In this document: piece by piece, positions 2,577-23,646 of the stretch
Numbering within the stretch: position 1 is the stretch's first letter
Layout of the letters: each line of letters opens with the position of its first letter
Assembly: GCF_030345795.1 (NCBI RefSeq)
Contig: NZ_JAUALB010000001.1
Coordinates: 3,278,001 to 3,342,000 of the forward strand
Length of the DNA: 64,000 nucleotides
Reading direction: 5' to 3'
Source: Micromonospora sp. WMMA1363
GTDB taxonomy: Bacteria > Actinomycetota > Actinomycetes > Mycobacteriales > Micromonosporaceae
The notes under the pieces: generated by a model
Databases searched by the model: none
Told to the model about the DNA's origin: nothing
Seen by the model: the letters and a program-made list of their open reading frames with translations, nothing else
Made by a program: the position numbers and the translations under genes

Positions 2577-2647
2577 CCCTCCCGCGGACGGGAAGGGAGA
2601 CGCCCCGGATGCCGTATTCGGGACCCGGGGCCCTCTCGATCCCTCGA

Positions 2648-4525: not shown

Positions 4526-5111
4526 GAGGCGAGGTGCCGCTGTTCGTCGGTGCTCCGACAGCCGACGAGGTCGAGTTGGGCATCGACACTCGCGGTCTGG
4601 AGCCCGGGTGGGAACACTGGTCGGACGATGAGTGGACAGCCTGGTACGAAACCACGCCGTCCGAGTCCGACGTGATGGCGATGGCCTGTCGCTGGAGCAT
4701 CGATCAGAGCGCGATCGACGACGCCACCGTGACTGCGACCGCGGCATTTACGGGTTACCGCCATCGGTCTCCAACGTCTCGCGATGACGATCCGGGTTGA
4801 AGGCCCTCCGTCCTCCCTTGCGCACTCTCATCGAGCACACCTCTGGGCGCCAGTGGCAGAAAACGACACCTTCGGTGACCAACACCTCGCGGCATGTGCG
4901 GGCACGTGATGACGCGCGTGTTTGACGGTCACCTCGACACCGGCCGCTGCCGCAGCGACCAGATCCGCACCGTCGACACTTGGTCATCGGCGTACGCGGA
5001 GCGTCGAGCTGGACCTGTTCCCGGTGGTCTCTGCGGTGCGGAAGCGGCCGATGCGAGCGCCGGCCGGTCGGCGGTGTGGGGCGCCGACCGGGCGGTCCCG
5101 GCTGGTCGGAC
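4526..5111. other. Intergenic region, no gene recognised
   Basis: An open frame continues from the integrase fragment to 4800 (about 90 residues containing GLEPGWEHWSDDEW), but it matches no family I recognise and begins inside a pseudogene. The rest, to the end of the MerR-clamp gene, shows no convincing start site, tRNA or repeat. It looks like decayed sequence left by an earlier element. Confidence 0.4.
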
Positions 5112-6176
5112 CTACGGCTTGACCGGCATCAGCAGCGAACAGGCGCGGTCGTCGGCGGGCCGCCGGATAACCAGCGGGCGGATCGGGCCGTCCAGCTCGA
5201 GCACGAGTTGGCCCTCACCGCCGGCATTCAGCGCCTCCAGCAGGAACTCCCGGTTGACCGCGACGTGCCGGTCCTGTCCGGCGCGCCACTCCTGCGCACC
5301 GACCACGTCGATCCCGCCCGCGGCGCCGATGGCCAGCACCGCCAGCTCGTGGTCGACGCCCTCGTGCGTGTGGAGCACCCGGGGCGCGCCGCCCACCGCG
5401 GCCCGCAGTGCGGCCGCGTCGACCGGCGCGCGGCGCGGGCTGCCGTCGGCGGTGCTCGCCTGGATGGCCCGGCGGTAGTCGGGGTAGTCGTACGCCAGCG
5501 GCGCGTCCTTGATCGTCCACCCGTCACCGGCCGCCTCGATCTCCACACTGTCCAGGTGCAGGATCACCGGCTCGTGCCGCCCAGGATGGTCGCGGAGCCG
5601 GTCGACCCAGGAGACCGGGGCTGTCACCCGGGTGGCCGGTCCGTCGACGGTCGCCGGCTCGCGGTGGACGACCATCCGGTAGCGGTCGGTGGCCACGAAC
5701 GTCACCCCGTCGGCCTCGGCGTCGACCAGGACGCCGGCCAACATCGGCAACTCGGGGTCGCTACCCACGGCGAAGCGCACGGAGTCGAGGGCGGCAGCCA
5801 GGACGGCGCGGGACAGGGTCACGGTGGTCATCGGGTTCTCCTGAGTGTCGAGAAGGGCGTGAACACGGGAGAGCTCGCGGCGGGCATCGGCCAGGCCGTC
5901 TTCGAGACGACGCAGGTGCGCATCCACCAGTCGATGCGCAGCCGCCCGCTCGGCGCCGAGCACCGCGACGATCCCGGCCACCGGCATACCGACCCGACGC
6001 AGACCGGCAACCAAGCGGGCCTGGTCGACCTGCGGCTCGCTGTACCACCGGTAGCCGTTACCCGGATCGACCACGGCCGGCACCAGCACCCCCGCGCGGT
6101 CGTAGAACCGCAGCGCACTCACACCGAGCCCGCTGGCCCGCGCCGTCTCGCCGATGCTCCGCAAGTCACTCCCCAC
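5112..6176 (-). CDS. MerR-family regulator fused to a DNA polymerase III beta-clamp-like domain
   Basis: About 354 residues from a GTG at 6176; a TTG at 6164 with GGGGAG upstream is an alternative start. Residues 5-75 are a MerR winged helix (IGETARASGLGVSALRFYDR, then GYRWYSEPQVDQARL), followed by a coiled-coil linker with RRLEDGLADAR. The C-terminal about 240 residues resemble the sliding clamp DnaN (LSRAVLAAALDSV, VTFVATDRYRM, NREFLLEAL, and LLMPVKP, a clamp-like C-terminus). An in-frame ATG at 5831 begins the clamp part and has its own AGGAGA site, so two products are possible. A role in transcription control or polymerase interaction is inference. Such fusions occur in actinobacteria, and the ligand is unknown. 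Confidence 0.8.
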   Translation of the reverse strand: MGSDLRSIGETARASGLGVSALRFYDRAGVLVPAVVDPGNGYRWYSEPQVDQARLVAGLRRVGMPVAGIVAVLGAERAAAHRLVDAHLRRLEDGLADARRELSRVHALLDTQENPMTTVTLSRAVLAAALDSVRFAVGSDPELPMLAGVLVDAEADGVTFVATDRYRMVVHREPATVDGPATRVTAPVSWVDRLRDHPGRHEPVILHLDSVEIEAAGDGWTIKDAPLAYDYPDYRRAIQASTADGSPRRAPVDAAALRAAVGGAPRVLHTHEGVDHELAVLAIGAAGGIDVVGAQEWRAGQDRHVAVNREFLLEALNAGGEGQLVLELDGPIRPLVIRRPADDRACSLLMPVKP

Positions 6177-6364
6177 ACCCCGAACCCTGCCCCCTCGACC
6201 AACTCGAGAGTCAAGTCGCGGACTGATTCTGCCCCCGCAGCCAGCCAGCCCGGTGCATTGAGAGGTGCACGCCGGGTTCGGGAAGCGGCCCGGGGAGACG
6301 GACCAGCCCAGCTGGTCTGGCACCGCGACCCGGGCCGACTCACCGACCCGACCCGGCGGCGGTC

Positions 6365-6425
6365 ATGACGTTCATCAACGAACACCGTGACCAGTTCGCG
6401 GTCGCGCTCCTGCTACGGGTGTCAA
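6365..6425 (+). pseudogene. IS3-family orfB N-terminal fragment
   Basis: A short reading frame, MTFINEHRDQFAVALLLRV, matches the usual start of an IS3-family orfB, where FI-x-EHRD-x-F-x-V is conserved. It is cut off after about 20 codons, exactly where the oppositely oriented IS3 debris begins. It is probably a remnant of one insertion sequence interrupted by another. Confidence 0.5.
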
Positions 6426-6449
6426 TCCCCTGGAATCGTGGGGGCTCCG

Positions 6450-6974
6450 TTATGCGGCCTGGGCCTCCAGGGCGCGGGTCTCTGATCGTTCATAGTCGAT
6501 AGGTGAACGCCAGTCGCAGGCAGAGTGTCGGCGGCGTCGGTTGTAGAAGTCGGTGATCCCGGTCGCGATCTTCAGGCGGGCCTCCGTACGGTTGCGGAAC
6601 TGGTGGCGGTGGATGTACTCCCGGCAGGCCACCGCGTGTGGCACGCCATGCTCGGTCCGCTGGGAAGCGATGAACCCGGCCACGCCCACCGGCCCGGTCG
6701 CTTCCATCACCCACAGGACCACGGATCGCTTGAGGACATCACGCTTCACCGCCAGCTCGGCGTTCTCCCGCCGCAGCCGGGCCAGCTCCGCCCGCTCGTC
6801 CTCCGACAACTGCCCAACAGCGGCCTCACTGCGAGTCTGGTGGTCCCTCTTCACCCAGTTCGCAAGGGTCATCCCCAGTCACGCGCGACCTGAGCGATCG
6901 ACTTACCCGTCTCCCGCACGATGCGCACCGCACCCGCCCCGGAACTCCGGATCAAACTGCGTCTCGTCAGCCAT
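6450..6974 (-). pseudogene. IS3-family transposase remnant (orfA-orfB, frameshifted and internally deleted)
   Basis: Read leftwards from an ATG at 6974, orfA begins MADETQFDPEFR. It then needs a one-base shift near 6930 to continue as AVRIVRETGKSIAQVARDWG, and a second shift to continue as NWVKRDHQ and LSEDERAELARLRRENAEL, the orfA helix-turn-helix plus leucine-zipper region. It runs straight into the orfB start (FIASQRTEHGVPHAVACR) and then jumps to the orfB C-terminus (YIHRHQFRNRTEARL, FYNRRRRHSACDWRSPIDYE). The DDE core is missing, so the element cannot move itself. Clear terminal inverted repeats were not found. Confidence 0.8.
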
Positions 6975-7281
6975 GAACCTCTATCCCTCAAGCTCTGGCC
7001 TCCACGCTAGGAGGGAATGGCACATGGCGAGCCACCCGGACATCTTCACCTTCGACGACATCGACAACGGCTTGGGCAACATCCGGGACTTCCAGACCAC
7101 GGGCGTAGTGGCGTTCGCCCGCGGGTGCCCGCTCTACGCCTCAAATCCGGGAAGTCAAACGTGATGGGGCCCGTGTGAGTGTTTACGAGGACTACCGCTT
7201 GGACTGTGTCGAGGCCATGGACACACTGACCGCGAAGCTGTAGATACCCGTCCACCTGACGACACGCATGCGACACAGCCA
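6975..7281. other. Intergenic debris between IS remnant and duplicated AICE end
   Basis: It contains one open stretch from an ATG at 7024 (MASHPDIFTFDDIDNG, 46 codons) that I do not recognise and that lacks a clear ribosome site. No RNA gene or repeat is visible. It is probably decayed mobile-element sequence. Confidence 0.35.
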
Positions 7282-7323
7282 GCGAGATCGAGCGGGCCAG
7301 AGCGGGACTGAGCGAGACTCACG

Positions 7324-7365
7324 AAAGAGCCCCCGACCGGCGTTCTCGCTGGTCGGGGGCCTCTT
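7324..7365. terminator. Intrinsic terminator copy at left AICE boundary
   Basis: The stem GCCCCCGACC (7329-7338) pairs with GGTCGGGGGC (7351-7360), extended by AAAGAG/CTCTT. It is a diverged, compensated copy of the hairpin at 23512-23555: the C:G change in one arm is matched in the other, so pairing is conserved. Confidence 0.6.
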
Positions 7366-7373
7366 CGTGCACC

Positions 7374-7425
7374 TGGTGGCGGGTAGAGGATTCGAACCTC
7401 TGAAGCTTTCGCGACGGATTTACAG
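7374..7425. other. attL: direct repeat of tRNA-Tyr 3' end
   Basis: 52 bases match 23563-23614 (one mismatch at 7403) and end in TTTACAG, which is the anticodon loop CTGTAAA on the tRNA strand. Crossover in or near the 22-base identical block 7404-7425 / 23593-23614 would excise a circle of about 16.19 kb. Confidence 0.8.
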
Positions 7426-7506
7426 AGCGCCACGGACAGCCCGCTGACCAGCACAAACGCCGTTCAGTCCGAGCATGACGACGCAGATACGACGCCGGTC
7501 CCGATT

Positions 7507-8202
7507 TCAGCCTCCCGCCCGGTCGATCAGAACCCCGGCTATCTCGCCCATGCTGGTGACCACCACGCCCGCCCCAGCGAGCCGGAACGCGTCGACCTTC
7601 GCCGGCCGATTCGCGTAGCCGACCACCGCGACCCCGGCGGCCCGCGCTCCCTCAATGTCCGAGAGCGAGTCGCCGATCAGCACACACCGGCCCGGCGGCA
7701 CGCCGAGGGCGCGCACGGCTTGCAGGATCGGTTCCGGGTTGGGCTTCATGCGGTCCGGCCGGGCGTACGCCCGGCCGACCACCGGAGAGACGTGCCCGGC
7801 GAGCCGGTGCGCTGCGAGGTAGGCGGTCACCGCACCGGCTGAATTGTTGCTGACCGCCGCCACCGGCACCCCGGCTTGCCGTGCCGCCACGATGACCTCC
7901 CGGCCGTACGGCGTCGGCTCGGCAGTCTCGACGGCCCGCCGCTCGGCCGCGCAGAGCGCATCCTCTACCGCTCGCGTGACGCGGTGGTCACCGGCCGCGC
8001 CAGTGCGGTGCAGCACTTCGAGCGGGTCCGCCTCTCTGGCGAGGTCAGGCGGTACGTCGACACCATGCTGTCGCAGCACGTTGACCAGCTCAGCCGCGAC
8101 CTGCGGCGCGGGATAGCCAGCGAAGATGCTGCACACCGGCCCGTCGAAGTCGAGCAGGACCGCGCCGACCTCGCCGAGCAGCCTGCCGAGGTCGGCGTTC
8201 AT
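7507..8202 (-). CDS. HAD-superfamily hydrolase of the AICE
   Basis: 231 residues. Motif I reads LLDFDGPVCS, so the two catalytic Asp are present, with a Gly-Pro rather than the usual Gly-Thr/Val after them. Motif II is AVSNNSAG, the motif III Lys lies in RMKPNPEPI, and motif IV is LIGDSLSDIEGA. The layout is that of phosphoglycolate-phosphatase-like enzymes with an inserted cap. The ATG at 8202 overlaps the stop of the GntR gene (ATGA), so the two are translationally coupled. HAD genes recur beside GntR regulators in AICEs, but the substrate is unknown. Confidence 0.8.
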   Translation of the reverse strand: MNADLGRLLGEVGAVLLDFDGPVCSIFAGYPAPQVAAELVNVLRQHGVDVPPDLAREADPLEVLHRTGAAGDHRVTRAVEDALCAAERRAVETAEPTPYGREVIVAARQAGVPVAAVSNNSAGAVTAYLAAHRLAGHVSPVVGRAYARPDRMKPNPEPILQAVRALGVPPGRCVLIGDSLSDIEGARAAGVAVVGYANRPAKVDAFRLAGAGVVVTSMGEIAGVLIDRAGG

Positions 8203-9476: not shown

Positions 9477-9725
9477 GTGAGGAAGTACCTCGCCCCCGTG
9501 GCCGCCGAGCCGACCGCCGCCGACCTGGCGGCCATCGACCGTGAGTGGCCGCTGATCGCCGCCGAGCTAGACGTGCTCGACGCGGAGATCACGATGCTCT
9601 ACGCCGAGGATCACGGCGGCCCGTCGCCGCTGGACTGGCGGCGTCTGCGCCGGGCGGAGGCCCGGGTTACCCGCGCCGCCGCCGACTTGGCCGCCCGCAC
9701 CACCGACCCGCGCCGCGCGGCCTGA
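9477..9725 (+). CDS. Small AICE protein, DUF6284-like
   Basis: 82 residues from a GTG with CGGAGG seven bases upstream. It is helical and acidic, with LAAIDREWPLIAAELDVLDAE followed by a basic helix (RRLRRAEARVTRAAADLA), the pattern of the DUF6284 small proteins found in Streptomyces and Micromonospora elements. The stop overlaps the next ATG (TGATG). It is the first gene of the rightward operon. Its function is unknown, and the family name is from memory of the pattern only. Confidence 0.65.
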   Translation: MRKYLAPVAAEPTAADLAAIDREWPLIAAELDVLDAEITMLYAEDHGGPSPLDWRRLRRAEARVTRAAADLAARTTDPRRAA

Positions 9726-10099
9726 TGTCGCGCATCCGCGCCGCCATCCACGATCCGGACGGGGCAAGGTTCGGCATTCCCACCTACTGGTGGCGGGGTG
9801 CCCCGCCGGGCTACGCCACCCGCCGTCAACTGGCCGCCGCGGGCTTGCGGCCCGGTGGTCAGCCGATCGCCGCTCAGATCCTGTGGCGTGGCGTGGGCGG
9901 CACTCGCGCCGCCTATCTGTACCGGGTTGATCTGGCCCGGCCGAAGCGCACCGCCACCCCCGGCCAGCTTCGGGCGGTGCGGGCCGCGTTGACCGCCCGC
10001 CGCACCTGTCCGACCTGCGGCACGGTCCGGCCTTACTACATCCCGCGCTCGCTGGGCGAATGCCTCGCGTGCGCCTATCCGCTGGAGGTGGCCGCATGA
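9725..10099 (+). CDS. RRQRL-type zinc-ribbon protein
   Basis: 124 residues. YATRRQLAAAGLRPGGQ carries the RRQ(R)L-like motif. The C-terminal third has a zinc ribbon with CPTCG and CLAC pairs about 20 residues apart. The middle (YRVDLARPKR) is strongly conserved in the relic at 4.2-4.5 kb. This is a recurrent hypothetical family of actinomycete integrative elements, possibly nucleic-acid binding. The start overlaps the previous stop and the end overlaps the next ATG. Confidence 0.75.
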   Translation: MSRIRAAIHDPDGARFGIPTYWWRGAPPGYATRRQLAAAGLRPGGQPIAAQILWRGVGGTRAAYLYRVDLARPKRTATPGQLRAVRAALTARRTCPTCGTVRPYYIPRSLGECLACAYPLEVAA

Positions 10100-10299
10100 G
10101 TCGCCGCTATCCGATCCCCCGCCCCGCCGATGACCCGCGTTTCGCGTTCGGCCTGGTGCTGGACGTGGCCCGGGTGCTCGCCGAGCACGGCTACCCGTCC
10201 ATGGCCGAGTCCTACGACGGGTGCGGCGCCGATTTTCTGGCGCTGCAAGACGCCCTGTTCTCCCTGATCTACGCCGACACCCCTGAGGAGTTGTCATGA
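10096..10299 (+). CDS. Small hypothetical AICE protein
   Basis: 67 residues, ATGA-coupled at both ends. It is predicted helical (FGLVLDVARVLAEHGYP, then FLALQDALFSLIYAD). No family recognised. The position between the zinc-ribbon and NUDIX genes and the tight coupling support it as a real gene. Confidence 0.65.
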   Translation: MSRRYPIPRPADDPRFAFGLVLDVARVLAEHGYPSMAESYDGCGADFLALQDALFSLIYADTPEELS

Positions 10300-10964
10300 C
10301 CCCCCGCACCTACACCCACCCGTCCGTCCTGGAAGGCATCGCCGCCGGGGCGTCGTGGGCCGACTCGACCATGGATCCCACCGTCATCGACTGGACCGAG
10401 AGGCAGCGCCGAGCAGCGATCCCCTTCGCGGTCGTCGACGGCCGCCCGGTCGCGCCGGCCCCGCCGACTGGCATCCGGTACGGCCGTAACCGCCTCGGAC
10501 ACTGGGGCGAGGCGCAGGCCGCCGACGCGATCGTTACCGCCCGAGACATCGACGGGGTGCGCTGCCTGCTGCTGATCGAGCGTGGCGACGGGTTCGGGTG
10601 GGCGCTGCCCGGCGGGCACGTCGACCCCGGCGAGATCCCCACCGCCGCCGCGTTTCGGGAGCTAACCGAGGAGACCGGACTGGTCGCCAACCCCACTGAC
10701 CCATGGGTGTGGACATTGCCGCCCCGGTACGTGCCCGACCCCCGCGCGAGCGATGAAGCGTGGATGGTCACCACCCCCGTGTGGATCGACCTTGGTTCCG
10801 GCTGGCTCCACCTACCCGACGTGACTGGCCAGGACGACGCCCGCCGCGCCGCCTGGCTCCCCGCCGACACCTACGACTGCCTACTTACCCACCTCGACGG
10901 GCTGTACAGCGGCCAGGTGTTCTCCGCCCACCGCGAACTGATCGCCGACATCCTCAACCACTGA
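10296..10964 (+). CDS. NUDIX hydrolase of the AICE
   Basis: 222 residues. The NUDIX box is complete: GGHVDPGE, then REL-x-EE-TGL at about residues 105-128. The N-terminal about 75 residues are family specific (TYTHPSVLEGIAAGASWAD). NUDIX enzymes cleave nucleoside diphosphates linked to other groups. In AICEs such genes are common beside the regulator and may make or remove a nucleotide signal controlling excision, which is inference. The start overlaps the previous stop (ATGA). Confidence 0.85.
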   Translation: MTPRTYTHPSVLEGIAAGASWADSTMDPTVIDWTERQRRAAIPFAVVDGRPVAPAPPTGIRYGRNRLGHWGEAQAADAIVTARDIDGVRCLLLIERGDGFGWALPGGHVDPGEIPTAAAFRELTEETGLVANPTDPWVWTLPPRYVPDPRASDEAWMVTTPVWIDLGSGWLHLPDVTGQDDARRAAWLPADTYDCLLTHLDGLYSGQVFSAHRELIADILNH

Positions 10965-12907: not shown

Positions 12908-12951
12908 CCGGCGGCACGGCCCTGGCCTCGCAAACCGTGCCGTGCCGCCGG
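12908..12951. repeat. Long hairpin B before traB
   Basis: CCGGCGGCACGG (12908-12919) pairs with CCGTGCCGCCGG (12940-12951). It is a sister of hairpin A with compensatory A/T-to-G/C changes. The two bracket the small-ORF block 12236-12884. Confidence 0.6.
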
Positions 12952-12990
12952 CCCCCACCCGATCCCATGACCGTTGGAGGAGCCCCCATC

Positions 12991-15258
12991 ATGACGTCCC
13001 CCCATGAGGACCGTTTCGACTGGCAAGCCGCAGAACAGGACCTCGGCGAGGTGGTCGACCTCGACGCCGCGCGGCAGCGGCGCGACAACTCGACTGCCGT
13101 TTCGCCCGCAGTGCAGGGCAACCCGCCGCCCGCGCCCGCTGTCCGGCCCGGGGACGCGGGGGAGGTGCTGGAAGGTGACATCGTGGCCGCGCAGGTCACC
13201 GACGTACCGCCGGAGCTGAAGCAGTGGGCGTGGGCGGTGGGGTGGCGGCACAAGGCCCGCCGGCTGTGGACCTACAAGTGGCGCTACCTGTGGAACACGT
13301 TCGTGGTGCTCGGCGCGTGGAGTGTGCGCGCGTCCGGCTGGTGGTTCCGGGGCATCGTCCGCTCCGTCACCGACTTCTTCTCGTTCGTCGATGACCGGCA
13401 GGGCCTCGCGGTGGCCGATCAGACCGCCGGGGCCGTGGACGGCAAAGCCGACGTGGACGCCTGGCTCAAGGCCCGCGCCGAGCGGCACCGGGAGGTCAAG
13501 GACCGCCGGAAGGTGGTCCGCTCCCGCACACTCCTGCCGCTGGCCGGACTGGTCGCGCTGGTAGTGGTGCTGCTGTGGCTCGGCCGGGGCGACCTGATCC
13601 GCAGCAACGCCGGCCGGGCCGCGCTGACGGTGTGGGTGGGGTTGGGGTGCTGGCTGGTCTGGTACGGCCGTGCCCGCACGGCTCCGTTCTTCCCGCAGTT
13701 CCGGGAGCCGTCGCCGTATCCGCCGGTCACGAACGACACTGTGACCGGGGCGCTGCTGGCGACCGGGATCACCCAGTTTCGGGATGTGGTGAAGGCCGGG
13801 CACTCCCCGGTGGATGTGATCTTCCGTGACGACAGTGCGGGCGGGAAGATCGCCGAAACCCATCCGATTCCGGGTGTGACCACGCAGATGGTGATGGCGA
13901 AGTCGGTTGTGATCGCCGGTGGGTTGAAGCGTCCGCCCGCGATGGTGCACCTGTCGCAGGCCCCGACCGGGGTGCCGGGGCACGTGGAGATCCTGGTGTT
14001 GGACATCGACCCCGGGCAGAGCAAGCCCAAGCGGTTCGCCTACCTCGGTAAGCCGGTCAACGTCGGTGCTCCGTGCACGATCGGCTACGACCCGCGTAAC
14101 CGGCCGGTGCGGTGGCCGCTGCCCGGCGCGAACGGCATCACCACCGGCACCCCCGGCTCCGGGAAAACCGCCTACCTGATCGGGCTGGGCTGTCTGGCCG
14201 CCGCCGACGTCGACGGCGCGCAGTTGGCGGTGTTCGACTTCAAGGGCATGGGCGACTACGCCGAGCTGGAACCGGTGTGCTTCGCCTACGGCGCGGACGC
14301 CGACCCCACCGAAACCGCCCGCATGCTGCTCGGCTTCTTGACCGGCCTGAAGCGAGAGATCATCCGCCGCCGTCAGGTCCTCACCGACCTCAAGAAGGTC
14401 GGCTCGGACCTGCTCGACAACAGCGCCGCCGCCCTCACGGACCGCCTCGCCCGGTCGAAGAAGCACAACATGCCGTGGATCCTCGTGATCATCGATGAGG
14501 TACACGAGGGCCTCGGCGACCCGATCCACGGCAAGGACATCGCCGTCCTGCTGACCGACCTGATGAAGATCGACCGGGCGTGCGGCATCCACGTCGAGAT
14601 CGCCTCCCAGCGCACCGACACCGACTCCATCCCGTCCGGGATCAGCTCCCTGCCGATCGTGCGGGTCGCGTTCCACCAGAACGGCCAGCCAGGCAACGAC
14701 ATGATCCTGGGCACCGGCGCCTACAAGCGCGGCGTCGACGCCACCGCCTTCCGCCGGGGCGCGGCCGGCAGCGCCGCCGACGACCGCGGCTCGTGCTGGT
14801 ACATCGGCTCCGAGGGCGGCGAACCGGTCCGGGTGCGCACCACGTTCGTGCTCCCGGACGTCAAGCGGATCGTGGCATCCGCGCTCGCCGGGCGCACCAA
14901 GGCCGGCACGCTGCTCGGCGCGGCGGCGGGCATCGTGGAGCAGCCCGAGACCGCACCGGCGTTCAGCGCGCTCGACGACGTGCGGGCGGTGTTCCTCGGC
15001 GACGAGATCGCCCTACACGGCGACGTGATCTACACCCGCGTCAACACCCGCCACCCCGGCCGGTGGAAGTCCCAAGCCGCGCTGACGGCCGCCCTGAAGG
15101 CCGAAGCGCCGGGCTGGAAGTCGCCCACCGTCGACGTCGGACAGCTCCGCCCAGCCGACGCCCCCGTTGACGCGGGGGTCGAGAAGACGCGTAGGGGCAT
15201 CCGCCTCAGCCACCTTGAAACCGCGATCACCGAGCGTGACAACAAGAAGGGCCAGTAG
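12991..15258 (+). CDS. FtsK/SpoIIIE-type conjugative DNA translocase (TraB/TraSA-like)
   Basis: 755 residues; ATG with TTGGAGGA upstream. The N-terminal 110 residues are polar. Hydrophobic segments follow near residues 105-125 and 180-230 (LVALVVVLLWLG, ALTVWVGLGCWLVWYG). The motor domain has Walker A GTPGSGKTAY (about 386-395) and Walker B ILVIIDEVHEG (about 497-507), with DRACGIHVEIASQR beyond. The last about 110 residues look like the winged-helix region that in TraB proteins binds 8-bp clt repeats. The hexamer moves double-stranded DNA between hyphae. CCTCGCGG repeats just downstream are candidate targets. Confidence 0.9.
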   Translation: MTSPHEDRFDWQAAEQDLGEVVDLDAARQRRDNSTAVSPAVQGNPPPAPAVRPGDAGEVLEGDIVAAQVTDVPPELKQWAWAVGWRHKARRLWTYKWRYLWNTFVVLGAWSVRASGWWFRGIVRSVTDFFSFVDDRQGLAVADQTAGAVDGKADVDAWLKARAERHREVKDRRKVVRSRTLLPLAGLVALVVVLLWLGRGDLIRSNAGRAALTVWVGLGCWLVWYGRARTAPFFPQFREPSPYPPVTNDTVTGALLATGITQFRDVVKAGHSPVDVIFRDDSAGGKIAETHPIPGVTTQMVMAKSVVIAGGLKRPPAMVHLSQAPTGVPGHVEILVLDIDPGQSKPKRFAYLGKPVNVGAPCTIGYDPRNRPVRWPLPGANGITTGTPGSGKTAYLIGLGCLAAADVDGAQLAVFDFKGMGDYAELEPVCFAYGADADPTETARMLLGFLTGLKREIIRRRQVLTDLKKVGSDLLDNSAAALTDRLARSKKHNMPWILVIIDEVHEGLGDPIHGKDIAVLLTDLMKIDRACGIHVEIASQRTDTDSIPSGISSLPIVRVAFHQNGQPGNDMILGTGAYKRGVDATAFRRGAAGSAADDRGSCWYIGSEGGEPVRVRTTFVLPDVKRIVASALAGRTKAGTLLGAAAGIVEQPETAPAFSALDDVRAVFLGDEIALHGDVIYTRVNTRHPGRWKSQAALTAALKAEAPGWKSPTVDVGQLRPADAPVDAGVEKTRRGIRLSHLETAITERDNKKGQ

Positions 15259-15323
15259 CACCCTGGCGGCCGGGCCGAAACCAGCCCGGCCGGCACCCCA
15301 ACGATCAAGAACGGGCCGCTAGG

Positions 15324-15610
15324 CCTCGCGGCATCACCCGCGAGGCCTCGCGGGTCCGCTAGGCCCCACCCTCGCCCCCCCAACCGCAACCCCACCAGCC
15401 GACTCGCACCCTCGCGGCCGGTAGGTGCCGCACACCCAAAAACAGCCCCGGAGGCCCTGGTGAAAACCCCCACCCGCAACCCGCTATGGGCAATGCTCAT
15501 CCTCCTCGCCGCCCTGTTCTGGCTCACCGCCCGCACCACACCCGGACTGACGTTGATCACCCTCGGTAGCCTCGCGGGGTGGCTCGGGCGCCCGTGGTGG
15601 GGCCTCGCGA
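15324..15610. promoter_or_regulatory. Candidate clt locus: CCTCGCGG repeats downstream of traB
   Basis: Perfect copies of CCTCGCGG start at 15324, 15346, 15410 and 15570, with CCTCGCGA at 15603, all on the plus strand. The first two lie in a larger imperfect palindrome with CTAGGCC at each side. TraB proteins recognise strand-polar 8-bp repeats in a clt near traB. Position and polarity fit, but binding is not shown. Confidence 0.4.
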
Positions 15611-16842: not shown

Positions 16843-17736
16843 GTGTCCGACCTGCTCACGATGGCTCTCGCCCACGCCACCCGAGGCTGGCATGTCTTCC
16901 CGCTGCGCCCCGACGACAAGCGACCAGCGTTCCCCGACCACACCACCGACGACTGCACCGAACGCGACCCGCGCTGCCGCACCGGACACGTCGGCTGGGA
17001 GGCCCGCGCCACCTGCGATCCCGACCGCATCCGGCGGGCGTGGACCGCCCGCCCCTACGGCATCGGCCTCGCGTGCGGGCCGTCCCGCCTCGTGGTGATC
17101 GACCTCGACCGGCCGAAGGACGACACCACCGGCCCGACCGGACTGGACACCCTCACCGGCCTCGCCCGGCAGCACGGGGCCGGCATCGAACCGACCTACA
17201 CCGTGACCACCGGGCGGGGCGGCACCCACCTCTACTACCAGCACCCCGAGGCCGGCCCGGCGTTACGCAACACCGCCGGCAGCATCGGCCCGATGGTCGA
17301 CACCCGCGCCCACGGCGGATACGTCGTCGCCGCCGGCTCCACCGTCGCCGGACGGCCCTACACGATCGACCTGGACACCGACCCCGCGCCGCTACCCGCC
17401 TGGCTGGCCGGGCTGCTGACCCCGGCGCCGCTGCCGCCGCAACGGCCGGTGGTAGTGGCGCTGCCGGGTGGGCGGGGACGGGCGTTCGTGCGGGCCGCTG
17501 TCGAGCGGGAGTGCGCGAGGGTCACCACCGCCCCGGACCACCACAACGACGCCCTGTATGTGGCGTCGGTGGCGCTCGGTCAGCTTGTCGCGGGCGGTTC
17601 GCTGTCCGCCGATGAGGCGTCTACCGCGCTGGAACACGCGGGGGATTCCGTCGGGCTGCGGCACCGGGCGGTGCTGGCCACCATCGCGTCAGGGTTCCGG
17701 GCAGGTGCCCGCCGGCCCCGGACGGTAGCCGCGTGA
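16843..17736 (+). CDS. Bifunctional primase/polymerase (prim-pol) replication protein
   Basis: 297 residues. The fold signature is present: ALAHATRGWHVFPLRPDDKR, GIGLACGPSRLVVIDLDRP with the acidic DLD pair, TTGRGGTHLYY, and the GGYVVAAGS motif. Prim-pol proteins make primers and extend them. In RepPP-type AICEs this protein, with a DUF3987 partner, replaces the RepSA rolling-circle protein. Here the partner gene at 19741 is displaced by a 2-kb cargo insertion. The C-terminal about 90 residues are helical and of unknown role. Confidence 0.85.
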   Translation: MSDLLTMALAHATRGWHVFPLRPDDKRPAFPDHTTDDCTERDPRCRTGHVGWEARATCDPDRIRRAWTARPYGIGLACGPSRLVVIDLDRPKDDTTGPTGLDTLTGLARQHGAGIEPTYTVTTGRGGTHLYYQHPEAGPALRNTAGSIGPMVDTRAHGGYVVAAGSTVAGRPYTIDLDTDPAPLPAWLAGLLTPAPLPPQRPVVVALPGGRGRAFVRAAVERECARVTTAPDHHNDALYVASVALGQLVAGGSLSADEASTALEHAGDSVGLRHRAVLATIASGFRAGARRPRTVAA

Positions 17737-17744
17737 ACGCCGCT

Positions 17745-18890
17745 CTACGGTTCCGCACGTGGCACGCGGTAGCTGTACTCCCGCGGCACCAGGTCTGCGG
17801 CGTCGATCAGCCAGGGCGTCGTGAACTGCGGCCGACCGGCAGTGCACACCACCGGATCGCCCGGCTGTACCTGGATTTCCGACACCACGTACAGGCCGTG
17901 GGCGGCTGCGCATTCCTTCTGATCCTGGTTGTGACGAACCTCGTTCGGGGTCAACGTCACCTCCTCGCCGCGGGTCTGCGTCCCCTTCACCTCGACGTGC
18001 AGCGCCGCGCCGTCTGGACGCGTGCACTCCAGGTCGTATCCGCGGTTGAGGTGGCCGACTCGTTCTACCTTCCAGCCGTCCTGTTCGAGCTCGTGGATTG
18101 CACAGTCCTCCGCGTACACCTCGATCGCGCGGCGGGTTGCGGAGTCGAGTTGCCGGCCCTGCGATCGCCGGACGCTGTTCCTGGCCGCGCGCCTAGCGAC
18201 CGACTCTCGGGGGCGGTTCGCTTCGTTCACCGCCGCGGCGGGGCGAATGACCGGGGCCTGATACAGCTGGGCAAGCAGGGGCAGCATCGAGGCGAGATCG
18301 CCGTACAGGTGTTCATTGCCGGGTACTGCGCCGGACACGTACTCGTAGGCAATGATGTTGCCGGCCTCGTAGTTGCGGATACGTTGCCTGCTCTCGGTGC
18401 CCACGGTCGACATGCTGGCCCACGCCAGATCGATCGAGAGGCGGCCCAATGTCGCGGGCAGCGTCGCCGCGAAATCAGTGATTGCCGCCCGTGCCTCGGT
18501 CGCCCGGGTGGTGAGGACGGAACGGTTGTTGATCGGCCGCATGGCGCCGGAGCGGAACTCGCTGGTGCCCTGATTCAGGGACAGGTACACCCGCGATCCG
18601 TCGGCGGCGAACAGGTACACGAGGTAGTAGCCGCTCGTTGCGGCTGGCGAGTGAACTGGCGAATAGAGCCGGACCCAGGGCACCGGGCTGTAGTTCGACT
18701 GTCGGCCGCCTGCCTTGACGCGCACATCGAAACGGAGCTGCTCAATCGGGTTGATCTCTCCGACGGCGGCAGCGAGATCGGCTACGCAATCGCGCAGCAG
18801 GTTATCGCGCGACGTCATGGCCGGCGTCTGGTCCTTCGAGTACTCGCCGGCCAGGTCGAGAACGCGTTGCAGGTTCGTACCCAGGTCCAC
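17745..18890 (-). CDS. MrcB-N / DUF3883 endonuclease-like protein
   Basis: 381 residues from a GTG with AGGGGA five bases upstream. The N-terminal about 190 residues match the MrcB N-terminal DNA-recognition type (LQRVLDLAGEYSKDQ, VRLYSPVHSPAATSGYYLVYLF, YEAGNIIAYEY). The C-terminal about 130 residues are a DUF3883 nuclease with a PD-(D/E)XK-like core, YDLEC then HVEVKGT (E and K near residues 300-302). The gene is divergent from a C5 methyltransferase 150 bases away, the arrangement of a two-gene restriction-modification system. It is convergent with prim-pol, nine bases apart, on the strand opposite to the operon, which marks it as cargo. Confidence 0.8.
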   Translation of the reverse strand: MDLGTNLQRVLDLAGEYSKDQTPAMTSRDNLLRDCVADLAAAVGEINPIEQLRFDVRVKAGGRQSNYSPVPWVRLYSPVHSPAATSGYYLVYLFAADGSRVYLSLNQGTSEFRSGAMRPINNRSVLTTRATEARAAITDFAATLPATLGRLSIDLAWASMSTVGTESRQRIRNYEAGNIIAYEYVSGAVPGNEHLYGDLASMLPLLAQLYQAPVIRPAAAVNEANRPRESVARRAARNSVRRSQGRQLDSATRRAIEVYAEDCAIHELEQDGWKVERVGHLNRGYDLECTRPDGAALHVEVKGTQTRGEEVTLTPNEVRHNQDQKECAAAHGLYVVSEIQVQPGDPVVCTAGRPQFTTPWLIDAADLVPREYSYRVPRAEP

Positions 18891-19039
18891 AGCAGTCCCC
18901 TACCCCGTGATCACGGCCGTTCCGCCGCAACGGTTCTAGCACCTGAACCGCAGTACGCGCGATACCCCATCCCACGTAGGCGGATGGGCGGCGACGCGCC
19001 TCGGGCGTCTCTCCGCATCTCCAGCGGAGCGGCGTGCAG

Positions 19040-19736
19040 ATGAACGTACTCGACCTCTTCGCGGGGATCGGTGGCCTGTCGCTCGGGTTGCAGCGTGCCG
19101 GGATGCGCATCGTCGGACACGTCGAGATCAACCCGTTCTGCCGCGCCGTCCTACACAAGCACTGGCCGGAGGTGCCTTCCCATGACGACGTACGCACTGC
19201 CACCGCCTGGTGGCGCTCGGAGCCGCGACCGCACGTTGACGTCGTTGCCGGCGGCTACCCCTGCCAACCCGACTCGGTTGCCGGACCCCGACTCGGCAGT
19301 AACGACTCCCGATGGCTCTGGCCCGAGATGGCCGCGGTCATCGCCGACCTACAAACCTACCTGGGTCATCGGCGAGAACGTCCTCGGCCACCGAACCCGC
19401 GGACTGCCGACCGTCGTGGCTGACCTTCAACGACTCGGATACACGCCGCACGCCGGCGTTGTCCGAGCTTGCGAGATGGGCGCGCCACACCCACGGCCCC
19501 GAGTGTTCGTCCTGGCCCACACCAACAGCGCGGGACGGCCCACGCGGTGCCGGCTGGAACCAGCCGGGCCGACCCCTGTCCGAACGCGTCGGTGGCCCAC
19601 TGAACCCGACGTGGGTCGAGTGGCTCATGGGCTTCCCGACCGGGTGGACCGAGTTACCGCCCTCGGCAACGCCGTCGTCCCCGCCGTCGCCGAACACATC
19701 GGCCACATCATCCTCGATCACTACGAAAGCAGGTGA
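19040..19736 (+). pseudogene. DNA cytosine-5 methyltransferase, frameshifted
   Basis: The first frame gives motif I LDLFAGIGGLSLGLQRAG and motif IV GGYPCQP (followed by DS instead of the usual FS). At the AAA of 19353-19355 one extra A breaks it. The next frame gives motif VI WVIGENVLGH, motif VIII RPRVFVLAHT, and motif X VTALGNAVVPAVAEHIG. The recognition region is short. The expected intact product is about 231 residues. Slippage at the A-run, a sequencing error or true inactivation are all possible. It would protect DNA from the divergent nuclease. It ends five bases before the DUF3987 gene. Confidence 0.75.
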
Positions 19737-19740: not shown

Positions 19741-21336
19741 ATGACACCCGCACCACGGCTGCACCTAGTCACCGACCCGCCGACACCCGCCGATGGGCAG
19801 CCCGCGGCTGGCTCACTGTGGGATGTTCCAGTGCCCGTGACCGGGCCGAGCACCGCACCGCCGCCGTTCCCGGTCGACGTGTTCCCCCGCTGGCTCGGCG
19901 ACATGGTGACCGGCGTCGCCCGGTTCACCCAGACCGATCCGGCCATGGCCGGCACCCTCGCCGTGGCGGTGCTGTCCGCGTGCGCGGGCGGCCGGTTGGA
20001 GGTGGAGCCGGTGGCCGGGTGGCGCGAGCCGGTCAACGTGTTCGCCGCCGTCATCGCCGGCCCCGGCGAGCGCAAGTCACCCGTTCACCGGGCCATGACC
20101 GCGCCGCTGTTCGCCGCGCAATCGACGCTGTCCGAGGCGATGCGGCCGAAGATTGCCGAGGCCGCCGCGCTGCGCGACATCGCCGACCGGCAAGCCGAAC
20201 AGACCAAGGCCCAAGCAGCCAAGGTCAGCGACAAGCGCGACGAGGCCGCCGCCGAGGCCGTGGCCGCCGCCATCGCCGCCGAGGCCATCACCGTTCCCGG
20301 CCTGCCCCGGCTGATCGTGGACGACGCCACCCCCGAGGCCCTGATAGGGCTGATGGCCGCCAACGGCGGACGCATGGCGATCATCTCGGATGAGGGCGGC
20401 ATCTTCGACACCCTCGCCGGCCGCTACTCCGGTGCTCCCAACCTGGATCCCTACCTGAAAGGCCACGCGGGGCAGCCGATGAGCAACGAACGGCAGACCC
20501 GCGAGGGTGCCTCGGTCGACAAGCCCGCGCTGACCGTCTGCGTGATGGCCCAACCGACCGTGCTGCGCAAGTTCGGCGGTAACGCCGACCTCGCCGGACG
20601 CGGCCTACCGGCCCGGTTCCTGTTCGCGCTCCCGCGCTCCCTCGCCGGCTACCGGGCCGTGGACACGCCACCGGTCGCCGAGCCGGTCACCGCCGGCTAC
20701 CGACGTCGTGTGCACGACCTGGCCAAGACCCTCGCCGACTGGGAAGATCCCGCCGTCGTCGTCCTCACCGAGGAAGCCGGCCAGGTCCGGCGGGCCGCCG
20801 CCGAACAGGTCGAAGCCGAGCTACGCCCCGGCGGCAGCCTCTACGACATGCGCGAATGGGGCAACAAACTCTCCGGCGCGACGCTGCGCCTGGCCGGGCT
20901 GCTGCACGTCGCCCACCACCCCGCCGACGCCTGGCAACAACCCATCGGCGCCGACCGCATGACCGACGCCGTACGCCTCGCCGAGTTCTTCGCCGCCCAC
21001 TACCGGGCCGCACTCACCACCATCGGCACCGACACCGCGATCGAGAACACCCGCTACGTGCTCGGCGTGCTCACCACCAAGGCCATGACCACCTTCACCC
21101 GCCGGGAACTGCACCGCCGCGTCATCCGCCGCCTACCAAAGTCCGATGAGGTGTCGGCCGTGCTGGCCGAGCTGGCTGCCCTCGGGTGGGTCCGCAACGG
21201 ACCCGACGGCCGGTACGAACTGCACCCCCGCGCCGCCGCGGAGGACCCCGAAAGCGTTGACGCGTTGACACCGCCCCCGGATGGCGACGTTTCCGCAGGT
21301 CACGACGCCAGCGAGGGTGTCAACGGGCCGCGTTGA
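19741..21336 (+). CDS. DUF3987-family replication-associated protein
   Basis: 531 residues from the ATG at 19741. DUF3987 (YfjI-like) features: a P-loop-like AGPGERKSPVHRAM near residue 105, a coiled-coil Ala/Glu stretch at about 135-185, LIVDDATPEALIGLM, and GGRMAIISDEGGIFD, a Walker-B-like acidic site. Its C-terminus looks like a winged helix (FTRRELHRRVIRRLPKSDEV). It is thought to act as the helicase/ATPase partner of prim-pol in element replication. The last codons overlap the first copies of the iteron array. The gene is separated from prim-pol by the restriction-modification-like insertion. Confidence 0.8.
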   Translation: MTPAPRLHLVTDPPTPADGQPAAGSLWDVPVPVTGPSTAPPPFPVDVFPRWLGDMVTGVARFTQTDPAMAGTLAVAVLSACAGGRLEVEPVAGWREPVNVFAAVIAGPGERKSPVHRAMTAPLFAAQSTLSEAMRPKIAEAAALRDIADRQAEQTKAQAAKVSDKRDEAAAEAVAAAIAAEAITVPGLPRLIVDDATPEALIGLMAANGGRMAIISDEGGIFDTLAGRYSGAPNLDPYLKGHAGQPMSNERQTREGASVDKPALTVCVMAQPTVLRKFGGNADLAGRGLPARFLFALPRSLAGYRAVDTPPVAEPVTAGYRRRVHDLAKTLADWEDPAVVVLTEEAGQVRRAAAEQVEAELRPGGSLYDMREWGNKLSGATLRLAGLLHVAHHPADAWQQPIGADRMTDAVRLAEFFAAHYRAALTTIGTDTAIENTRYVLGVLTTKAMTTFTRRELHRRVIRRLPKSDEVSAVLAELAALGWVRNGPDGRYELHPRAAAEDPESVDALTPPPDGDVSAGHDASEGVNGPR

Positions 21337-21471
21337 CACCCGTTGACAGGCGTTGACACCCCGCCCGCTGTCAACGGGTGTCAACGCCTGTCAACGCCCA
21401 CCGTTGACACCCCCACACCGGCTCTCATCTGCGGAAACGCCCGCACGTCGGCCGATTGTCAACGTGTCAAC
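21254..21471. repeat. Iteron array: 12 GTTGACA/TGTCAAC heptamers
   Basis: Forward copies start at 21255 (variant GTTGACG), 21264, 21332, 21342, 21352 and 21403. Reverse copies start at 21318, 21369, 21379, 21389, 21457 and 21465. Two trios have exact 10-base spacing and face each other (21332-21358 and 21369-21395), giving a large dyad. The spacing of about one helical turn fits cooperative binding. It sits between the replication genes and xis/int, so it is a candidate replication origin or operator. Confidence 0.8.
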
Positions 21472-21693
21472 GCTTCCGGCACCCTCGCCGCCACACTCCG
21501 GCCCGTCGGCCGCCCGTCGATCCTCGGAAAAGGCCCGCTGAGAGCCACACAGACGCATCGACCCTATGCCTTTACACCAACCCTGCCCGGATCTTGCGTC
21601 TCCGTGACTCTCAGCGGGCCGCTCTACGCCGTTCTGCGGCGATGTCTCCCCATCCCTCCACAAGTGACCCTCGCCGACCGGAAGGCCCTCACC
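21472..21693. other. Region between iterons and small pre-xis ORF
   Basis: The region is noticeably less GC-rich than its neighbours (for example ACGCATCGACCCTATGCCTTTACACC). It contains the direct repeat GTCTCCGTGACTCTCAGCGGG versus GCTGAGAGCCAC as a near inverted pair (CCGCTGAGAG at 21536, CTCTCAGCGG at 21610). No gene is recognised. It probably forms part of the origin or the xis-int promoter region. Confidence 0.4.
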
Positions 21694-21861
21694 GTGCGAA
21701 TCAGGCTGCACGGCACACCCGCTGAAACAGCCGCAGCGCTGGCCGCCCTCGCCCATGTGCTGCACATCCGCTCCGTCTCCCGGCCCTACCCCGACCGCCG
21801 ATCCCCGCTGTTCCAGCGCATCTACCTCCACGCCACCCCGAGGGAGGACACCCGCCAATGA
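21694..21861 (+). CDS. Small pre-xis AICE protein (55 aa)
   Basis: GTG at 21694 with GGAAGG nine bases upstream; another GTG at 21664 is in frame. The product has a ferredoxin-like pattern (VRIRLHGTPAETAAALAALA, then SVSRPYPDRRSPLFQRIYLH). Similar small proteins precede Xis in related elements. The stop overlaps the xis start (ATGA). Confidence 0.6.
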   Translation: MRIRLHGTPAETAAALAALAHVLHIRSVSRPYPDRRSPLFQRIYLHATPREDTRQ

Positions 21862-22058
21862 CCATCCGCCGCACCCCCACCGGCAACCTGCTCACCCTCG
21901 CCGAGGTCCTGGACGAACTCCGCGTACCCCGGTCGACCTTCTTCCGCTGGAAGGCCACCGGCCGCGCCCCCAAAACCATCAAGTACCCCAACGGCAGCCT
22001 GTACGTCCGCCGCCGCGACCTGGACAACTGGATCGACGACCACGAAGAGGCAGCATGA
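21858..22058 (+). CDS. xis: Excisionase-like helix-turn-helix protein (Xis)
   Basis: 66 residues with the AlpA/MerR-like winged helix used by AICE Xis proteins: LLTLAEVLDELRVPRSTFFR, RWKATGRAP, and SLYVRRRDLDNWIDDH. It is ATGA-coupled both to the preceding ORF and to int. Xis bends attachment DNA to direct Int to excision rather than integration. Confidence 0.85.
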   Translation: MTIRRTPTGNLLTLAEVLDELRVPRSTFFRWKATGRAPKTIKYPNGSLYVRRRDLDNWIDDHEEAA

Positions 22059-23503
22059 GCAGCTACGACGTACGGGTGTGGAGCATCCTCCCGAACCGCA
22101 GCCAGAAAAAGCCCAGCTACTCCGTTCGCTGGTTCGTCGCGAAGAAGCCGTTCCGGAAGACCTACGCGACGCGGGCGCTCGCCGAAAGCTTCCGTGCCAA
22201 GCTGATCGTTGCGCAGCGGGAAGGCGTTGCGTTCGATGAGGTCAGCGGCCTGCCCGAGCCGATGGCGCGAGCGCTCAACACCCGATCGTGGTACGAGCAC
22301 GCCGCGGCCTACGTCGACATGAAGTGGCCCCGCGCGTCGGCCAAGCACCGCAAGGGCATCGCCGAGACGCTGGCCACCGTCACCCCGGCACTGCTCGCGA
22401 CCGACCGGGGCGTGCCCAGCGACAAGGCGCTACGGGCCGCGCTCTACGGGTGGGTCTTCAACAAGGCACGCCGAGACGCTGGGGAACCACCCGCCGACCT
22501 CGCCGCCACCGTGCGCTGGCTCACGGCCAACACCGTCGACCTGGCCGCGCTCGCCGACGCCGGGTTGGTGCGGAAGGCGCTCGACACGCTTGCCCTGCGA
22601 ATGGACGGTGCCGCCGCGTCGGCCAGCACGATCGCCCGCAAGCGGGCCGTCTTCTCCGGGGCGTTGAAGTACGCCGTTGAGCTGCGGCTACTCGACGCGC
22701 ACCCGATGTCTCTGGTGAGCTGGACCGCGCCGAAGACGGCCGATGAGGTCGACCGGGGGGCGGTGGTCAATCCCGATCAGGCGCGAGCGCTGCTCGCCGA
22801 GGTGGGGCGCTCCGTGCCCGAACTGGAAGCGTTCTTCGGATGCATGTACTACGCCGCTCTGCGCCCCGAAGAGGTGCTTCACCTGCGGGAAGACGAGTAC
22901 GAGCGGCCCGCTCGGCGTGGGGGGTGGGGCGTACTGCACCTCACCGGCTCGACGGTGGCCGTCGGCCGCGATTGGGGCGACGGAGACGACACCGCCGAAG
23001 ATCGAGAGTTGAAGCACCGCGCCAAGGCGGCCACGCGGGACGTTCCGGTGCCGCCGCCGCTCGTGCGGCTGCTCGACCACCACGTCAAGGAGTACCCGCC
23101 CGGATCGAACGGCAAGCTGTTCGTGACCCGGCGCGGCCCCGGTGGGCGATACGTGCCCACCGCCGGCCAGCCCATCCCGAACAACACCTACGGGAAGGCA
23201 TGGCGGGACGCACGGGCAAAGGTGCTCACGGCGGCTCAGCAGCGCTCGCCGCTGGCCCGCCGTCCCTACGACCTGCGCCACGCGGCCGTGTCGCTCTGGC
23301 TCAACGCCGGAGTACCGGCTACCCAGGTCGCCGAGTGGGCCGGGCACAGCGTGAACGTCCTCATGCGGGTCTACGCGAAGTGCGTCTACGGCCAGGAGGA
23401 AGCCGCCCGCCGCCGGATCGAGGCCGCGCTAGGAGGTGCGAAAACGCCGACGCGAATACGACGCGACCGGCGAGATCGAGCGGACCAGAGCAGGACTGAG
23501 TGA
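22055..23503 (+). CDS. int: Tyrosine integrase of the AICE
   Basis: 482 residues. A SAM-like core-binding domain lies in the middle third and a catalytic domain in the last 200 residues. Catalytic residues visible: R270 (YAALRPEEVL), R408 in PYDLRHAAVS with Tyr in place of the first His of HxxR, H431 in WAGHS, and nucleophile Y440 in RVYAKC. It lies 60 bases from the tRNA-Tyr it recombines. A strong terminator follows the stop. The C-terminal tail (IRRDRRDRADQSRTE) is preserved as a remnant at 7.28 kb. Confidence 0.92.
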   Translation: MSSYDVRVWSILPNRSQKKPSYSVRWFVAKKPFRKTYATRALAESFRAKLIVAQREGVAFDEVSGLPEPMARALNTRSWYEHAAAYVDMKWPRASAKHRKGIAETLATVTPALLATDRGVPSDKALRAALYGWVFNKARRDAGEPPADLAATVRWLTANTVDLAALADAGLVRKALDTLALRMDGAAASASTIARKRAVFSGALKYAVELRLLDAHPMSLVSWTAPKTADEVDRGAVVNPDQARALLAEVGRSVPELEAFFGCMYYAALRPEEVLHLREDEYERPARRGGWGVLHLTGSTVAVGRDWGDGDDTAEDRELKHRAKAATRDVPVPPPLVRLLDHHVKEYPPGSNGKLFVTRRGPGGRYVPTAGQPIPNNTYGKAWRDARAKVLTAAQQRSPLARRPYDLRHAAVSLWLNAGVPATQVAEWAGHSVNVLMRVYAKCVYGQEEAARRRIEAALGGAKTPTRIRRDRRDRADQSRTE

Positions 23504-23511
23504 GACTCACG

Positions 23512-23555
23512 AAAGAGGCCCCTGACCGGCGTTCGCGCTGGTCAGGGGCCTCTTT
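23512..23555. terminator. Bidirectional terminator between int and tRNA-Tyr
   Basis: AAAGAGGCCCCTGACC (23512-23527) pairs fully with GGTCAGGGGCCTCTTT (23540-23555), a 16-bp perfect stem flanked by A and T tracts. It serves the integrase (plus strand) and the tRNA (minus strand). Confidence 0.85.
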
Positions 23556-23562
23556 GTGCACC

Positions 23563-23614
23563 TGGTGGCGGGTAGAGGATTCGAACCTCTGTAGCTTTCG
23601 CGACGGATTTACAG
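23563..23614. other. attR: tRNA-Tyr 3' repeat
   Basis: Matches attL at 7374-7425 with one mismatch. Identity ends at the anticodon loop. The chromosome side keeps the tRNA 5' half and promoter. Confidence 0.8.
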
Positions 23615-23646
23615 TCCGCTCCCATTGGCCGCTCGGGCAACCCGCC
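23563..23646 (-). tRNA. tRNA-Tyr (anticodon GTA)
   Basis: Acceptor GGCGGGT (23646-23640) pairs with ACCCGCC, then A and an encoded CCA ending at 23563. The anticodon loop is CTGTAAA, giving GTA. A long variable arm of class II type and TTCGAAT in the T-loop are present. The 3' half from the anticodon loop on is supplied by the AICE attP and restores an intact gene. Confidence 0.95.

Follow-up and report, generated by a model that had tools for sequence, protein, structure and literature searches.

At which site does the integrative element in this stretch of Micromonospora DNA begin to copy itself, and which of its proteins would recognise that site? The earlier note had singled out a cluster of GTTGACA heptamers and read it as a replication origin bound by Prim-Pol, DUF3987 or Xis, or else as an operator of xis and int. 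The window, by which we mean the whole 64-kb stretch that was analysed, harbours an integrative element, roughly 16.2 kb long, which repeat comparison delimits by direct repeats at 7314–7425 (the attL side) and 23502–23614 (the attR side, 113 nt); the two are 94.7% identical, and the latter overlaps a tRNA-Tyr gene (23563–23646). On the plus strand the element encodes a TraB/FtsK-like transfer protein of 773 aa (12937–15258; Pfam PF01580, E = 2e-5), a Prim-Pol of 297 aa (16843–17736; PF09250, E = 6.4e-43), a DUF3987 (YfjI-type) putative initiator helicase of 531 aa (19741–21336; PF13148, E = 6.9e-112, ORF from 19312), an xis-like HTH_17 gene recognised by Pfam (21858–22058) and a tyrosine integrase (22055–23503), whose PF00589 match on the ORF 21755–23503 (E = 3.3e-5) lies below the Pfam gathering score (24.2 vs 27.1 bits). 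Further genes encode a GntR-type regulator, a NUDIX protein and a DUF2637 protein. With att repeats at a tRNA gene, Int, Xis, an FtsK-like Tra and a replication gene, this tRNA-Tyr element carries the AICE gene set.

Several other features of the region deserve mention. Extra genes lie between those for Prim-Pol and DUF3987 (17745–19736), among them a minus-strand ORF of 381 aa that had no match in an NCBIfam search and, adjoining it, a C5 cytosine methylase gene whose reading frame appears broken; they are perhaps a decayed restriction-modification insert. A third piece of the tRNA-Tyr-adjacent repeat (34 bp, 97%) occurs at 2543–2576, and between it and attL (2600–7314) are genes for a DUF7507/DUF11 protein and for one in which a MerR domain is combined with a DNA polymerase III beta-clamp domain; this stretch is perhaps a second, older element. 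Repeats around GCCTCGCGG directly 3' of traB (15316–15363) form a candidate clt site.

The end of the DUF3987 gene carries a dense array of the heptamer GTTGACA. All 11 exact copies in the window, both strands counted, lie within 21264–21471, where the whole window would be expected to hold 2.95; none of 100 shuffles reached 11, and chance was rejected as the source of the array. A twelfth copy, GTTGACG, occupies 21256–21262. The count of twelve heptamers in both orientations given in the earlier note is thereby borne out, as is the excess over random DNA by which it proposed to judge them. Read from the outside inwards, each half begins with a pair in an 8-bp step, continues through roughly 54 bp containing a TGACCTGC-type motif, and ends with a single inverted heptamer and a trio in 10-bp steps. 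On the left these are iterons 1 and 2 (21256–21262 and 21264–21270, plus strand; the former with one mismatch), iteron 3 (21318–21324, minus strand) and iterons 4–6 (21332–21358, plus strand, starting at 21332, 21342 and 21352). On the right, beyond a central 10-bp spacer (21359–21368), follow iterons 7–9 (21369–21395, minus strand, starting at 21369, 21379 and 21389), iteron 10 (21403–21409, plus strand) and iterons 11 and 12 (21457–21471, minus strand). The facing trios had been placed at exactly these positions before; the mirror extends to the whole array, all 12 sites forming six left/right pairs about 21363.5 (iteron 1 with 21465–21471, iteron 2 with 21457–21463, iteron 3 with 21403–21409), an order matched by 2 of 100,000 random placements. 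The first copies lie inside the DUF3987 gene, as claimed: iterons 1–3 belong to its coding sequence, and its stop codon (21334–21336) sits in iteron 4. The sequence GTTGACANNNGTTGACA has four matches in the 6.48-Mb genome, all four within this array.

The bases flanking the heptamers are mirrored as well (83 of 118 positions match), and the dyad at 21363.5 is the best long dyad of the window (runner-up 62 matches; mean 35.3, sd 5.9). Such a region is able to fold strongly, the calculated value for single-stranded DNA being -83.3 kcal/mol (z = -9.6), which would suit a transcription terminator or an RNA formed by the mirror and the hairpins, the heptamers being incidental. We regard this reading as exceedingly improbable, since no terminator-like site was found in 21200–21900, half-arrays without a dyad exist among relatives, and heptamers and a second motif are conserved whereas the spacers and the centre vary. 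An Rfam search of 21000–21900 with E up to 1 gave 13 matches, nine of them to microRNA models; all 13 fall below the gathering scores and were dismissed as inverted-repeat artefacts.

Relatives of the DUF3987 protein were sought in GTDB species contigs (21 loci) and in whole genomes at the level of the order (E <= 1e-30; found in 34 of 397), genus (1e-120; 16 of 160), class (1e-60; 19 of 394), family (1e-125; 30 of 354) and the family of G853 (1e-120; 4 of 35), searches that overlap one another. The close group, defined by about 56–90% DUF3987 identity and a C-terminal part that was found, comprises 38 elements including that of the window, of which 37 are distinct, as L026 and L111 are one contig with zero branch length. 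Excluded from the co-variation set were L034 and L036 (DUF3987 fragments without C-terminus, no array), L037 (28% identity) and L102/G298 (DUF3987 truncated and an insert splitting the array), and L033 (DUF3987 in two frames) and L105 (match starting at residue 107 or 123) were retained. Every one of the 38 elements has five or more heptamers of a single class (second base T, C or G) where its DUF3987 gene ends; the named hosts in this group are Micromonospora, Kribbella, Pseudofrankia, Frankia, Parafrankia and Fodinicola. Five or six mirrored pairs are present in 25 of the 38 and the exact order ++-+++---+-- in 10, the length of the central spacer varying.

This spacer measures about 21 bp in many relatives and 264 bp in the decayed element L102 (G298), where it splits the array centrally (within 9700–10500) and, judged by eye, codes for a small membrane protein; the truncated DUF3987 gene adjoins. 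The halves themselves are found in other combinations. Only one half-array follows the stop codon in L118, L119 and L121, and L115 likewise keeps just one that can be recognised, which means that the dyad is dispensable; the two half-arrays of L117 and L122 point the same way, and L032 (= L105) combines left-half sites with three right halves. In L021, 82 bp are missing between two direct copies. Because halves occur singly, in tandem and multiplied, the half-array looks like the unit. More distant loci (<50% identity) were compared with Markov resamplings: in 10 of 38 a gene-end 6-mer is commoner than in any of 30 resamplings, and the heptamers arrayed there in both orientations are different ones (CACAGAA, GACAGAA, CCGCAGA and others), and the other 28 gave no repeat excess in this crude 6-mer test. 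The 10 include a complete circular Streptomyces plasmid record of 18.45 kb, in which genes for Prim-Pol, a small protein and DUF3987 are followed, in this order, by an array of GACAGAA and by genes for an HTH protein and an integrase; bearing an integrase, this circle may be an excised element.

Elements differ in the second base of their heptamer (T, C or G), and the sites of an array switch in concert. Pure arrays are found in 24 of the 38 elements, some C copies being possible in T arrays; in the stretch counted, L031 is the only G element with a T/C copy, and the T/C elements L028 and L033 hold one G copy each. No locus scanned for all four bases has A as its main class. Where a dozen sites change in concert, a sequence-specific binder must have changed with them. 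TraB, Int, Xis and Prim-Pol do not behave in this way. Across a switch, TraB remains up to 96% (T/C) or 94% (T/G) identical, Int up to 96%, Xis 93% between a T and a G element, and Prim-Pol 87% between L100 (G) and L022 (C), whereas each of the four drops below 31% in some pair with the same heptamer: the TraB of the window shares only about 30% identity with the TraBs of same-heptamer elements, the Xis of L031 only 17–19% with those of L100 and L026 (all G), and the Prim-Pol of L023 only 28–30% with those of L100 and L031 (all G). Among elements whose protein was found in the DNA examined, L138 not counted, and in columns with at least 80% of rows occupied, no column separates G from T/C in TraB (0/516), Prim-Pol (0/262), Xis (0/89) or Int (0/174). 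Of 25 array elements, four lack any recognisable relative of this Xis in the DNA examined, three lack one of this Int, and three have no TraB relative there.

Prim-Pol was therefore rejected as the reader of the heptamers, on account of its identities among the three G elements and between L100 and L022, and Xis, likewise offered earlier as a binder, fares no better as the protein that gives specificity. The same comparisons bear on two other functions of the array. A clt transfer site, which TraB would bind by a winged helix of its own, would fit an element with a TraB-like gene, and clt sites, as far as the accessible literature describes them, are repeat clusters; those of plasmid pWTY27, TGACACC and CCCGCCC, are similar to GTTGACACCCCGCCC at 21352 (PMC3583192, in the sections available). 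The heptamers, however, do not co-vary with TraB, which can be nearly unchanged across both kinds of switch and widely diverged within one heptamer type, some array elements are without a TraB relative, and a separate repeat cluster stands directly 3' of traB; we consider this function very unlikely. As to an operator of xis and int, bound by Xis or another regulator, the array of the window element does lie directly upstream of both genes and TTGACA matches a -35 box, yet no sigma-70-type promoter was found in 21200–21900 and the array is partly within coding DNA. Together with the behaviour of Xis across and within heptamer types and the array elements that have no such Xis or Int, this makes the second reading of the earlier note highly improbable. 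Among the five proteins compared, only the predicted C-terminal domain of DUF3987 tracks the heptamer type.

Within DUF3987, differences between elements of different heptamer type tend to gather in residues 439–493 (21055–21219, plus strand), a winged-helix-like segment that we propose, from weak matches to winged-helix families and from co-variation, as the iteron-reading domain. In a clustering test on 15 pairs picked by hand, L026 (G) and the window (T) differ at 26 of 55 positions in the segment and at 60 of 444 outside it (p = 2.9e-8), and L018 and L025, of different type and 92% identical in DUF3987, at 10 of 55 vs 16 of 444 (p = 1.6e-4); the same-type pair L026/L100 differs at 6 of 55 (p = 0.42). 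Clustering is absent or borderline in the different-type pairs L022/L017 (p = 0.57), L022/L030 (p = 0.052) and L022/L097 (p = 0.066), absent in L035/L105, which are of different type and diverged throughout (p = 1), and weakly present in the same-type pair L018/L021 (p = 0.03). Among the T and C elements of Micromonospora type, 14 in number, average divergence is 0.165 in the segment and 0.089 elsewhere for the 33 different-type pairs, against 0.089 and 0.094 for the 58 same-type pairs.

Position 462 (codon 21124–21126, plus strand; Ile in the window) is the only one of 479 that separates G from T/C elements (37 rows, 36 distinct), with His in 7, Arg in 2 and Gln in 5 G elements, and Ile in 6, Ser in 11, Ala in 4, Tyr in 1 and Pro in 1 T/C elements. 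The next best positions (442, 439, 487, 426, 491 and 481) lie within the segment or adjoin it, and one further separating column falls in the tail encoded by the array itself. In the first 24 elements several columns separated G; position 462 was chosen from this first set and then checked on further elements, and in the larger set it alone was left outside the array-encoded tail. On 12 new distinct elements (L112–L122 and L138; 11 of them from the family search), a rule fixed beforehand, namely G if and only if residue 462 is basic, was right for all three T elements (Ser, Ile, Ile) and for four of nine G elements; it failed in the other five, all with Gln. The position, as opposed to the residue class, still separates 12 of 12. 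By post hoc reasoning, His, Arg and Gln are all able to donate hydrogen bonds to guanine.

On a maximum-likelihood tree of residues 1–425 only, G/non-G changes six times by parsimony, and a residue class at 462 defined after the data were seen (H/R/Q/K/N) follows the heptamer in all five supported independent contrasts, a sign test on five pairs having a floor of p = 0.0625. With random labels of 5–7 changes, a position that separated the classes completely turned up in 0 of 3000 trials when branches were drawn evenly and in 46 of 3000, mostly N-terminal, when they were drawn by length. A corresponding rule for C elements, Ile479 with N/E476, is seen in four elements only. Profile searches of the PDB returned nothing significant, either for the whole DUF3987 protein (best TFE, E = 0.48, whose matched piece we take to be a winged helix) or for the C-terminal piece (McrC, E = 0.37). 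In a Pfam scan of 13 C-terminal pieces, nine matched SMC_Nse1 (best 3.2e-5), in a part that is presumably winged-helix, and four MarR_2 (best 0.067), single members matched HTH_IclR and BLACT_WH, and others unrelated families. These weak profile matches and our reading of the sequence suggest that the segment is winged-helix-like; a literature search on YfjI and winged helix gave nothing relevant among the matches listed.

The array is accompanied by a second conserved motif, TGACCTGCNNNAAC, with an exact left copy (21289–21302, minus strand) and an imperfect right copy with the core CTGCGGAAAC (21425–21438, plus strand), which fails a one-mismatch scan. With up to one mismatch allowed, 70 copies of it lie close to gene ends in a set of 77 loci, among which repeat copies of the same element are counted, vs about 4 expected from the remaining DNA, with at least one copy in 48 of the 77; this enrichment is purely descriptive, because the motif was defined on these same arrays. 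Since it stands beside arrays of very different heptamers (L032, L045, L068, L083, L087, L091 and others), its binder is probably different from the iteron-reading domain. Plasmid pFP11 (L108:8237) has one exact copy about 420 bp 3' of the gene following Prim-Pol. Between array and xis lies a 26-bp hairpin (21532–21620) with the conserved loop CCCTAYGCC...GGATCTTGC, aligned from the window and 17 loci, some of which carry an unlike Xis. A BLAST search of 30 loci found it in none of the Frankia- and Kribbella-type loci, but L113, L115 and L118 show similar text. Two-sided changes occur in one of 14 pairs; the hairpin is almost without covariation because its sequence hardly varies. It is possibly part of the replication module.

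Taken together, these comparisons indicate that the array is very probably the site at which the element begins copying itself. We hold with considerable confidence the following hypothetical mechanism, in which the array is the replication origin of the excised circular AICE: (i) the predicted helicase DUF3987 would bind the heptamers by its winged-helix-like C-terminal domain, residue 462 reading the second base; (ii) it would load itself at the array and then unwind the DNA; (iii) Prim-Pol, encoded upstream of DUF3987, would prime; (iv) the reading unit would be the half-module of trio, one inverted copy, TGACCTGC motif and pair, and facing half-modules, as in 25 of the 38 elements and in the window, would send out two helicase assemblies in opposite directions, which would make replication bidirectional. 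Of the proposal in the earlier note, an origin bound by DUF3987 thus gains support from conservation and co-variation, and the part given there to Prim-Pol or Xis finds no support as far as specificity is concerned. As at iteron origins, an above-chance cluster of short repeats adjoins the gene of the putative initiator, and the repeat sequence co-varies with the putative DNA-binding domain of that protein. No AT-rich unwinding element stands out over 21001–22100 (AT 20–42% per 50 bp), and we therefore file the site as working like an iteron origin, without counting it among the established members of the classical iteron-plasmid family.

DUF3987 might instead bind the array for copy-number control, incompatibility or autoregulation, with synthesis beginning elsewhere. 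Iteron plasmids use their iterons for copy control too, and the co-variation speaks for dependence on DUF3987, not for where synthesis starts. The position of the array 3' of the DUF3987 gene, the same place as in the SaPI and, by our reading, the pWTY27 origins, argues against such a division of roles, which we consider quite unlikely. Starting from the origin reading, we tentatively propose a wider one, whose chances we put a little short of even: Prim-Pol/DUF3987 elements may be a large origin class with an evolvable code, in which residue 462 would set one iteron base and about six switches among the elements compared would have created new incompatibility types, directional half-modules (single, facing or tandem) would provide uni-, bi- or multi-loading, and the second motif would be the joining point of a common factor, either Prim-Pol or a host protein. 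Our analysis supplies coordinates for a candidate origin together with a candidate binder, domain and residue. If the origin reading is right, the DUF3987 proteins of these elements, annotated as of unknown function or YfjI-like, would be origin-binding initiators, origins in further genomes could be sought where the DUF3987 gene ends, and the evolution of origin specificity could be followed in the ready series that the natural switches provide.

Among the literature matches listed, in which subscription journals are thinly covered, no origin of Prim-Pol/DUF3987 elements is described; the accessible parts of the work on Prim-Pol integrative elements give gene content, with the origin absent. 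DUF3987 is described as a predicted helicase family of mobile elements (PMC5862659, in part). In the SLP1 element, a Prim-Pol gene is followed by an unlike replication gene (SCO4617/SCO4618, Prim-Pol and RepPP; PMC3218068), and by description AICEs of this type resemble the window element as actinomycete integrative elements in which Prim-Pol precedes an uncharacterised replication gene; the main text of that paper, as far as available, is without the term DUF3987 and describes no origin of the window type. A Streptomyces longwoodensis plasmid with RepAM (DUF3631; L106) likewise has Prim-Pol, a small gene and then an ATPase gene with an array at its 3' end, here a cluster of CCGCTAC in both orientations (6250–7600). 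Its ATPase family and repeat sequence differ from those of the window element, which suggests that the layout is common to several partner proteins of Prim-Pol.

The DUF3987 helicase at its array is best read, by analogy, as acting like SaPI Rep at its ori and like the pWTY27 system. According to the available sections of one study (PMC7581432), the C-terminal domain of SaPI Rep acts on iterons directly 3' of its own gene, that of SCCmec Cch2 binds repeats 3' of its own gene, and these helicases are thought to bind as two hexamers. Shared with the window element are a mobile-element helicase (here predicted), a C-terminal DNA-binding domain (here putative, and winged-helix-like from weak profile matches) and iterons directly 3', and with Cch2 also a primase-polymerase, there an operon partner. 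In contrast, the SaPI and SCC helicases are DUF927 and D5/Primase_Cterm proteins of other hosts, whereas the only Pfam match of the window protein is DUF3987, and Cch2 has three five-base iterons where the window type has up to 12 heptamers in mirrored halves (PMC7581432). The basic replication locus of the Streptomyces plasmid pWTY27, as given in the accessible text (PMC3583192), comprises repB, a predicted primase/polymerase gene, repA and a 300-bp non-coding iteron region; RepA footprints a long inverted repeat, and replication is bidirectional. From the coordinates and the 'c' in the gene names, we infer that this iteron region lies 3' of repA. Its repeats (GTGGGAAC/TTCCCAC) are unlike the window heptamer, and RepA (522 aa) is termed hypothetical there (PMC3583192). 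The mode of action is thus already known from other systems; what we find new is that DUF3987 is the class involved, that the half-modules are laid out as mirror images and that one residue co-varies with one base, and in the window-type elements, unlike SaPI and Cch2, the position associated with specificity can be traced through natural switches.
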